NCBI GenBank assembly: GCA_013314855.1
Contig: JABUEW010000034.1
Span: forward strand, 1-35,535
DNA length: 35,535 bases
Source: Bacillota bacterium
GTDB lineage: Bacteria > Bacillota > Clostridia > Acetivibrionales > DUMC01
Reading direction: 5' to 3'
The notes under the pieces are model-generated. The model did no database searches and was not told the origin of the DNA. It saw nothing but the letters and a program-made list of their open reading frames with translations. Of the stretch, positions 4,104 through 27,046 are shown one piece after another. Every line of letters starts with the position of its first letter. Position 1 is the stretch's first letter. The translations under genes were made by a program, and so were the position numbers.

Positions 4104-4562
4104 TCAAATATAATATATATACCCATCCATAATATCCTTTTCATATGCTTCATATGCATCAATCAAATCTTTTAAAGTAATACTGTCAATAACCTCGTTA
4201 ACCCCATCTTTTATCTTCATCCAAATATACTTTGTTATACAACTCTCAGATCTTTTACATTTGTTTTTCCCTTTATTCTGACCTATACACTTAACAGGTG
4301 CAAGATCGCCTTCAAGTGCCCTAAGGACATCACCTACAGTAATGTTCTCAGGTTGTTTTGAAAGTGAGTATCCCCCCAAAGGTCCCCTTATGCTTTTCAC
4401 CAGTCCGGCTTTTCTAAGAGTAGATAACAGCTGTTCAAGAAATTTCTCAGGGATATTTTGCCTCTCGGCAATGCTTTTTACAGTAACTTTTTCGCCGTAG
4501 GAATACATGGCTAAATCTAGCATAGCTTTAATTCCATATTTTCCTTTAACAGAAATAGTCAT
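4104..4562 (-). CDS. Rrf2-family regulator with Fe-S cysteine triad (IscR-like)
   Basis: This 152-aa Rrf2 protein has a winged helix at residues 1-85 ('KYGIKAMLDLA', 'SIAERQNIPEKFLEQLLSTL', 'SIRGPLGGYSL'). Cysteines C92, C102 and C108 match the triad that holds a [2Fe-2S] cluster in IscR, although the spacing (9 then 5 residues) is looser than the E. coli 5/5 pattern. It starts 2 bp after the metY stop and is followed by cysK, so it sits inside a sulfur amino acid operon. It may tie cysteine supply to Fe-S or redox status. The motif is visible; the regulatory role is inferred. A GGGGAG ribosome binding site lies within the end of metY. Confidence 0.85.
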   Translation of the reverse strand: MTISVKGKYGIKAMLDLAMYSYGEKVTVKSIAERQNIPEKFLEQLLSTLRKAGLVKSIRGPLGGYSLSKQPENITVGDVLRALEGDLAPVKCIGQNKGKNKCKRSESCITKYIWMKIKDGVNEVIDSITLKDLIDAYEAYEKDIMDGYIYYI

Positions 4563-4564
4563 AC

Positions 4565-5869
<1,305 letters not shown>

Positions 5870-6403: not shown

Positions 6404-6464
6404 TCCTATATGAATAATATGATATATATTACTACATTTTTTCCCTTGTGTCAATAAGTCAATT

Positions 6465-6719
6465 ATTTATGGGCGCATTTTATTTAAGTGAAGAAAATAT
6501 TGGTAAGGAGCATTAGTGAAGCTGCTGTAGAGCCTTTTAATCTGAGCGGAGGAAAAGCAAAATCGTTGTTTGAGTAAAATTATTTCTTAGTTTTTGTTCA
6601 AATAATTTTACTAATTTTACGAGTTCGATTTTGCCCGTAGCTGAATTTAAAGGCTCTAAGCAGCGTAACGATAGCTCCTGGTAAATATTTCTTCACTTTT
6701 AATAAATGCGCCCGTAAAT
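6465..6719. repeat. Long palindromic (MITE-like) repeat, copy A
   Basis: An imperfect inverted repeat of about 255 bp fills the spacer between the divergent rrf2 and GerMN genes. Outer arms are ATTTATGGGCGCATTT (6465-6480) and AAATGCGCCCGTAAAT (6704-6719). Pairing continues inward through 'AGTGAAGAAA', 'AGGAGC', 'GCTGCT', 'AGAGCCTTT' and 'GCAAAATCG' to an AT-rich centre near 6575-6620. No reading frame of note lies inside. The ends and several internal blocks recur in copy B (19646-19903), in the opposite orientation. No flanking target duplication is evident here. Confidence 0.85.
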
Positions 6720-6728
6720 GGCCTTTGT

Positions 6729-6756
6729 TTGCAATAAAATTCTAATATGGTATAAT
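6729..6756 (+). promoter_or_regulatory. Promoter of the GerMN lipoprotein gene
   Basis: TATAAT (6751-6756) preceded by TG one base earlier (TGGTATAAT, extended -10), with TTGCAA (6729-6734) 16 bp upstream. It sits just outside the right end of palindromic repeat A. Confidence 0.65.
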
Positions 6757-19637: not shown

Positions 19638-19911
19638 CTTTCTAGTGCGCATTTTCTTTTCATGACCCATTATATTCCAGAAACGATGCTCCAGGCCTCT
19701 AGAGCCTGTAAATTCACTTCGGGGCAAATCAAACTCGCAAAATAATTTGAATAGAATTTAATTTGAATAGAATTTAATAATATTTCAATGTAATTATTTT
19801 GCTTATACAGTTGATTTGCTTATCCCTCGTCGGATTAACAGGCTCTACGAGACCTTTCGCAATGTTTCTGTCATTATATGGGTCATATATGGAAAATGCG
19901 CCCCTTTCTAG
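19638..19911. repeat. Long palindromic (MITE-like) repeat, copy B, with 8-bp flanking duplication
   Basis: The body (19646-19903, 258 bp) has terminal arms TGCGCATTTTC and GAAAATGCGCCC, and pairs imperfectly over most of its length ('CATGACCCAT', 'CAGAAAC', 'AGAGCCTGT'). It is flanked by the 8-bp direct repeat CTTTCTAG (19638-19645 and 19904-19911), a likely target-site duplication. The arm-specific blocks AGAGCCTGTAAATTCA (plus strand, left) and AGAGCCTGTTAATC (minus strand, right) match the right and left arms of copy A respectively, so B is inverted relative to A. The centre holds a direct repeat of TTTGAATAGAATTTAAT. It fills the ruvC-argG spacer and has no coding capacity. Confidence 0.85.
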
Positions 19912-19934
19912 TTGTATTTTCTTACGCATTAATA

Positions 19935-23165: not shown

Positions 23166-23225
23166 CTCCCTTAGAAGCGGGCGCATTTTCTTCATAAAAA
23201 TAAAATGCGCCCCTCCCTTAGAAGC
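23166..23225. repeat. Short palindromic repeat with 13-bp flanking duplication
   Basis: A 34-bp element (23179-23212) has perfect 11-bp ends, GGGCGCATTTT and AAAATGCGCCC, around a 12-bp AT-rich centre. Its right part, from CTTCA to the end, resembles the right end of long copy A, so it looks like an internal-deletion form. It is flanked by a perfect 13-bp direct repeat CTCCCTTAGAAGC (23166-23178 and 23213-23225). Confidence 0.85.
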
Positions 23226-26938: not shown

Positions 26939-27013
26939 ACTTTTTAATAATACAACCACACTGTTTTAATACTTAACAATATTTACACTAAAGACTTGGA
27001 GCATTTAGTTGCT

Positions 27014-27046
27014 GGAAGCATTTTCTTCAGAAAATAAAATGCGCCC
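27014..27046. repeat. Short palindromic repeat, degenerate copy
   Basis: A 33-bp element with ends GGAAGCATTTT and AAAATGCGCCC and centre CTTCAGAAAAT. It is nearly identical to the element at 23179-23212, except for two changed bases in the left arm and a slightly different centre. No flanking duplication is visible. Confidence 0.75.

Follow-up and report, generated by a model that had tools for sequence, protein, structure and literature searches.

Palindromic repeats with ISKra4-type ends in a clostridial genome are probably promoter-preferring MITEs

RESULTS

The palindrome between two divergent genes

The window (the whole stretch of DNA analyzed, 35,535 nt) carries a long palindrome in the spacer between two divergent genes, one Rrf2-like and one lipoprotein-like. 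The nearest homologues of the Rrf2-like gene were 41 to 59% identical, and none was found in genome G001. The palindrome had been described in a first-pass annotation as being about 255 bp long (6465 to 6719) and without coding capacity. The end-to-end fold was borne out by a predicted energy of −104.7 kcal/mol for this segment, compared to a shuffle mean of −53.6 (z = −11.4), and no ORF of ≥90 aa was found inside the element. The extent, however, was revised: conserved termini were located at 6471 to 6481 (GGGCGCATTTT) and 6703 to 6713 (ATAAATGCGCCC), from which the element was deduced to be 243 bp (6471 to 6713), the outer 6 bp on either side being flank. On the basis of its termini, fold, and genome matches, this element (copy A) was assigned to the A type of a putative MITE family, with the TTAATC arm first; like the other elements described below, it was given no strand. 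No target duplication was found at copy A, the best flank match being 4/9.

Two sigma-A-like promoters directed outward from copy A were predicted, each with a consensus match of 10/12. The first, on the minus strand at 6426 to 6454, faces the Rrf2-like gene and has its −35 box (TTGACA) 16 bp from the element, a 17-bp spacer, and TAATAT as the −10 box. The second, on the plus strand at 6729 to 6756, faces the lipoprotein-like gene with TTGCAA at 15 bp, a 16-bp spacer, and TATAAT. Promoters at 16 and 15 bp would explain why copy A fills the spacer between the divergent genes. Elsewhere in the window, a fluoride riboswitch (RF01734, 40.4 bits) was found at 710 to 783 on the minus strand, and a 61-nt inverted repeat pair, 87% complementary, lies at 1677 to 1737 and 4541 to 4601, 2.8 kb apart.

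Related elements in the window

The recurrence previously placed at 19646 to 19903 was confirmed as copy B, a 257-bp element (19647 to 19903) assigned to the B type by its sequence, fold, and genome matches. It is oriented opposite to copy A, and the swapped order of the arms held, as a single alignment takes copy A on the plus strand and copy B on the minus strand. Copy B folded over its whole length (19638 to 19908, z = −10.4), and its left terminus has lost GG. It is flanked by a perfect direct repeat on the plus strand, CTTTCTAGT, at 19638 to 19646 on the left and 19904 to 19912 on the right, which was taken to be a target duplication. The ruvC-argG spacer of G002, a genome of another genus in the same family, aligned with the sequence on either flank of copy B but lacked the element, although the spacer sequence is diverged and does not retain the insertion point nucleotide for nucleotide. 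The family is thus not confined to orthologous sites. No synteny with G001 was found at argG.

The two further recurrences, described earlier as ends at 23179 to 23212 and 27014 to 27046, were indeed family sequence but were found to be something other than isolated ends. The first is a complete 34-bp short element (23179 to 23212) between 13-bp direct repeats of CTCCCTTAGAAGC at 23166 to 23178 and 23213 to 23225. The second is the right part of a truncated C-type long copy spanning about 26991 to 27046, as judged by comparison with the right ends of copies at loci L048 and L044. The true ends, the completeness of the 34-bp elements, and the promoter spacing reported below had all been absent from the first-pass annotation.

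Copy number and types in the genome

The family was found to be dispersed in many copies through the window's assembly (4,427,354 bases in 252 contigs). Exact GGGCGCATTTT occurred 117 times (50 forward and 67 reverse) compared to once for the reversed pattern, and short palindromes of the form GCGCATTTT-N0-30-AAAATGCGC occurred 17 times compared to none for the control. Similarity searches returned 57 matches with copy A and 64 with copy B, counts in which each arm of a palindrome is a match of its own. At least 40 places related to copy B were scored, which is a lower bound because 40 of 110 candidates were scored. The family extends well beyond the copies in the window, with different flanks from copy to copy, and 6 of 34 insertion points fell within open frames of ≥100 codons. 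Many contigs terminated within copies, as expected for a repeat that breaks assemblies. Among the forty small contigs C213 to C252, a terminus with ≤1 mismatch was found in two, both of which held ordinary copies.

The elements ranged from 34 to 272 bp, with 15 delimited long copies of 233 to 272 bp. Three long types (A, B, and C) share a common core, AGAGCCTG...CAGGCTCT, and are unlike in their outer parts. A-type copies were found on contigs C34 and C73, B-type ends carry CATGACCCATTATATTCC, and C-type ends carry ATTTTTATGAAGAAAATGC or CAAATTTTGAAGAAAATGC. A fourth type of 272 bp, at C69:8392-8663 (L130, 1893 to 2164), has the same termini and an unrelated interior. The 34-bp copies match the remnant expected, for either end, from deletion between the two AAAATGC (or GCATTTT) repeats of a C-type copy, and it was deduced that they are probably deletion products arisen between these 7-bp hairpin repeats. 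Three copies of 129 to 131 bp, on contigs C6, C64, and C79, lie at different sites yet have a deletion junction in common, which suggests that the deleted form itself transposed.

At the end of contig C5 (L134) and the starts of contigs C6 (L284) and C66 (L285), a short-element terminus was followed within about 20 to 35 bp by another repeated sequence of possibly IS21-like kind. These contig ends, where a terminus gives way to unrelated sequence, were first read as an autonomous partner. This reading was rejected since the C5/C6 element was present at six places, the terminus being missing from four of them, and had therefore inserted into short copies, as seen at the other two.

Target duplications

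Two tests were applied to the flanks. In the first, the best 9-mer was sought with a boundary shift of ≤2 nt and a match of ≥7/9, chance being estimated from re-paired flanks. By this test, duplications were present at 8 of 15 long copies and 6 of 19 short copies of the window's genome (chance, 2 to 3%); the remaining 7 long and 13 short copies fell below 7/9. In the second test, for which the repeats had to be strictly adjacent with zero shift and either 8 or 9 bp was allowed, the numbers were 8/15 for long copies (chance, 0) and 7/19 for short copies (chance, 0.9%). The strongest result was obtained for Acetivibrio alkalicellulosi DSM 17461 (G042), where 17 of 21 delimited long copies had a duplication by the first test, 11 of them perfect, compared to 2% by chance; 3 of the 23 core-pattern stretches of this genome yielded no delimited copy. 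At locus L243 of the same genome (997 to 1026), a 30-bp element lies beside a long copy, with three copies of the 9-bp repeat TGATAAATT separating and flanking the two.

An insertion sequence with matching ends

The first-pass annotation had proposed a MITE-like family whose transposase would be elsewhere and a search for an insertion sequence (IS) with the same terminal repeats. The proposal is supported by the numerous copies and the many 8- to 9-bp duplications, and the search succeeded in A. alkalicellulosi, where an IS with such ends makes the same 9-bp duplication. Six ISKra4-family matches were found there at five places, three of which had both ends: one intact IS of 1,641 bp with a perfect 9-bp duplication (AAAAACATC) and two internally deleted copies of 1,229 and 920 bp, also with perfect 9-bp duplications (AGTACCAAA and AGAAAAAAG). 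All three have the ends GGGTGCAT. The transposase profile score was 300.7 bits, compared to the ISKra4 cutoff of 205.

The left end of this IS was 88% identical to the left terminus of copy A over 25 bp (E = 9.5e−5), 86% identical to one A. alkalicellulosi MITE over 28 bp (E = 2e−5), and 84% identical to the C type over 25 bp; B-type ends matched the IS at the terminal bases only. No similarity was found between the inside of the MITE and the IS. It is this left end that each of the two MITE ends resembles, and the element thus has the appearance of a doubled left end. From these similarities, the A. alkalicellulosi IS is the likely helper.

In the window's genome, the search for the family yielded five matches, none above the cutoff; the full-length one, on contig C17, proved to be an ISLre2-family element with other ends (see below), and of ISKra4 itself only fragments were found. 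With a shortest contig of 2,029 bp, the assembly may have lost a collapsed IS. One fragment, on contig C179 (L136), was judged a relic, with 52% identity to the A. alkalicellulosi transposase over 112 aa. The relic gene appears by eye to be interrupted by an IS256-like element and lies beside fragments of another transposase.

Spacing between insertions and promoters

Several IS elements of the ISKra4 group, as well as ISLre2, have been reported with a sigma-A −35 box about 16 bp from the inserted element; for those with near-identical ends, promoters were described on both sides, and the repeats were 8 to 9 bp (portions of PMC3942029). A promoter scan was made outward from every terminus for TTGACA-16/18-TATAAT with ≥9/12 matches. 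A −35 box lay 15 to 17 bp away at 55 of 242 junctions, compared to 3 of 242 at 5 to 7 bp and 7 of 242 at 25 to 27 bp. By offset, over 244 junctions, there were 14, 32, and 18 hits at 15, 16, and 17 bp, compared to a mean of 3.6 per offset for the remaining 27. The per-junction counts are the figures to use, as the Poisson value obtained from the hits includes overlapping ones of a single promoter and is nominal.

The peak was present in both genomes, at 37 of 156 junctions in the window's genome and 18 of 86 in A. alkalicellulosi. By class, the former gave 7/28 for long B, 4/23 for long C, 3/8 for A-type, 11/39 for short, and 12/58 for unclassified elements, and the latter gave 9/39 for long MITEs, 3/14 for short, and 3/26 for unclassified elements. 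The ends of the A. alkalicellulosi IS had the −35 box at this distance in three of four cases on the right and none of three on the left. The spacing is a property of the MITEs as a population and not of every copy: copy B had no promoter at 15 to 17 bp (nearest −35 box at 30 to 32 bp), and the 34-bp element at 23179 had a −35 box at 20 to 21 bp, outside this range.

DISCUSSION

Proposed mechanism and its consequences

Taken together, these data led us to conclude, with a probability of roughly 0.9, that the palindrome is a nonautonomous DNA transposon (MITE) with ISKra4-type ends, moved in trans and preferring promoters. Its two ends resemble the left end of an IS of the ISKra4 family, present twice in inverted orientation; the Mutator-like DDE transposase of this family belongs to p-MULT 4. 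Such a transposase, acting in trans, would cut at GGGYGCAT and insert the element with an 8- to 9-bp target duplication, preferentially at sites where a sigma-A promoter has its −35 box 15 to 17 bp farther downstream. We infer that the copies in the window's genome, too, were mobilized by a transposase of the ISKra4 type.

MITEs are mostly regarded as inserting wherever the DNA permits. In a family directed to promoters, a single gene-less element can substitute for the sequence immediately upstream of one promoter after another throughout a genome. The inserts described here appear to have done so, and regulation may change as a result. The promoter targeting reported for ISKra4 and ISLre2 transposases would thereby be extended to nonautonomous elements, and the insertion set offers natural sites for studying how these transposases find promoters. 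The open-licence literature yielded no description of this MITE family or of promoter-targeted MITEs, and the term "MITE" does not occur in PMC3942029.

The ISKra4 family is the closest known system. As in the MITE, its ends begin with GGG, its duplications are 8 to 9 bp, and the −35 box lies about 16 bp away (portions of PMC3942029), and its member in A. alkalicellulosi scored over the family cutoff. Unlike ISKra4 elements, the MITE has no transposase gene, resembles the IS left end at both of its ends, and is a long imperfect palindrome inside. A comparable partnership is that of MITEAba12 of Acinetobacter, a short noncoding element with 9-bp duplications that is moved by a coresident IS with matching ends (portions of PMC6382973). 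It differs in that its partner, ISAba12, has GGCTTTGTTGCA ends and in its length of 111 to 114 bp; the same portions report a preference for AT-rich DNA and do not mention a fixed promoter distance.

The hairpin core and a structured RNA

Related sequence was found in 12 of 59 other genomes at E = 0.001, weakly in two of them (G002 and G054). A core-pattern search of GTDB species genomes gave 59 stretches. Three of these, in unrelated taxa (Marinilabiliaceae, Flavobacteriaceae, and Paenibacillus), were set aside as pattern matches only; the others came from A. alkalicellulosi, A. straminisolvens, A. mesophilus, and a number of uncultured Clostridia. No match to the element was found among plasmids, phages, and viral contigs. 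The core was aligned from 29 of 45 extracted copies, originating from the window's genome, A. alkalicellulosi, A. straminisolvens, A. mesophilus, DTU079, SKW182, AS24, and G016. In the consensus hairpin, 95.7% of cells were paired, compared to 24 to 51% for slid versions. At 16 of 40 pairs, both sides changed (93 cells), and the covariation score was 0.283 versus 0.136, with none of 500 shuffles as high; relatedness among the rows weakens this control, and the alignment tested had also served for predicting the structure. Across several genera, the core thus appears to have been maintained by compensatory changes. Parts of the core, including TAGAGC and TTAAT, were invariant in sequence. Asymmetric positions were also kept, with TTAATNCGA on one arm and GAATTTA or ATTTA on the other, and simple palindrome correction is therefore not the whole explanation.

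The covariation and the invariant motifs are what would be seen if the palindrome were a conserved structured RNA or host regulatory hairpin, spread by duplication and kept by selection rather than a transposon. Such an origin would also accommodate the copies in SKW182, which have different ends, and those in DTU079, which have locus-specific outer stems, as neither set showed a clear target duplication. The outermost DTU079 stem varies yet remains complementary (GTGGAG/CTCCAC, GTTAAG/CTTAAC, and GAGAAG/CTTCTC, at loci such as L191, L207, L222, and L239). An origin as a structured RNA or host hairpin is nevertheless very unlikely given the inverted ends, the 8- to 9-bp duplications, and the IS with the same ends. 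Furthermore, no Rfam family overlapped the element in the window at the gathering score, and no credible match appeared under relaxed searches at E values up to 5, or up to 1 for two relatives. A fold-energy bias toward one strand in 27 of 29 copies was gone when compared to shuffles (mean z, −6.99 versus −7.01), so it is explained by composition and a preference for one RNA strand was dropped.

A different proposal, compatible with transposition, is that selection acts on the core TAGAGCNTGTTAATNCGA ... GAATTTACAGGCTCT as a single-strand structure, either RNA or DNA, which is carried by different transposable shells and serves as a portable cis-element just upstream of promoters. This is tentative and, in our view, rather unlikely. 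If true, the shells of the core would have ends of the ISKra4 type in A. alkalicellulosi and the window's genome and different ends in SKW182, while in DTU079 they would consist of outer stems specific to each locus. In its position near a promoter, the core might protect or adjust it, for example by forming a cruciform or by being transcribed into a hairpin.

Other transposases and passive spread

Movement of the MITE by another transposase making 9-bp duplications was considered because contig C17 of the window's genome holds a resident ISLre2-family element (L137, 1200 to 2820). Its transposase scored 312.9 bits against a cutoff of 200, and an apparent 9-bp duplication, TGCCTTGCT, flanks it. 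TnGBS and ISLre2 (p-MULT 3), like the MITE, are reported to insert upstream of promoters, 15 to 17 bases from the sigma-A −35 box (portions of PMC3942029). Unlike the MITE, they are autonomous and have other ends: the C17 element reads GATAGTGT and GTTAGTGT and not GGGYGCAT, and no 11-mer within two mismatches of a MITE terminus was found at the C17 locus, whereas the A. alkalicellulosi ISKra4 copies do have GGGTGCAT. The C17 element was thus rejected as the helper, and an origin of this kind is highly improbable.

ERIC and Correia repeats are intergenic palindromic repeats present in many copies. The intergenic bias, full palindromy, and deletion variants of the present family would equally suit passive palindromes of the REP or ERIC kind, spread without any transposase through recombination or slippage during replication, but the A. 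alkalicellulosi duplications far above chance and the fixed distance to promoters leave this origin with a negligible probability. REP/GTAG and CGTC palindromes with RAYT transposases are likewise multicopy intergenic palindromic repeats (portions of PMC3733652). They are 20 to 40 bp long and associated with tyrosine transposases, whereas the MITE described here has a DDE-type duplication and GGGYGCAT ends.
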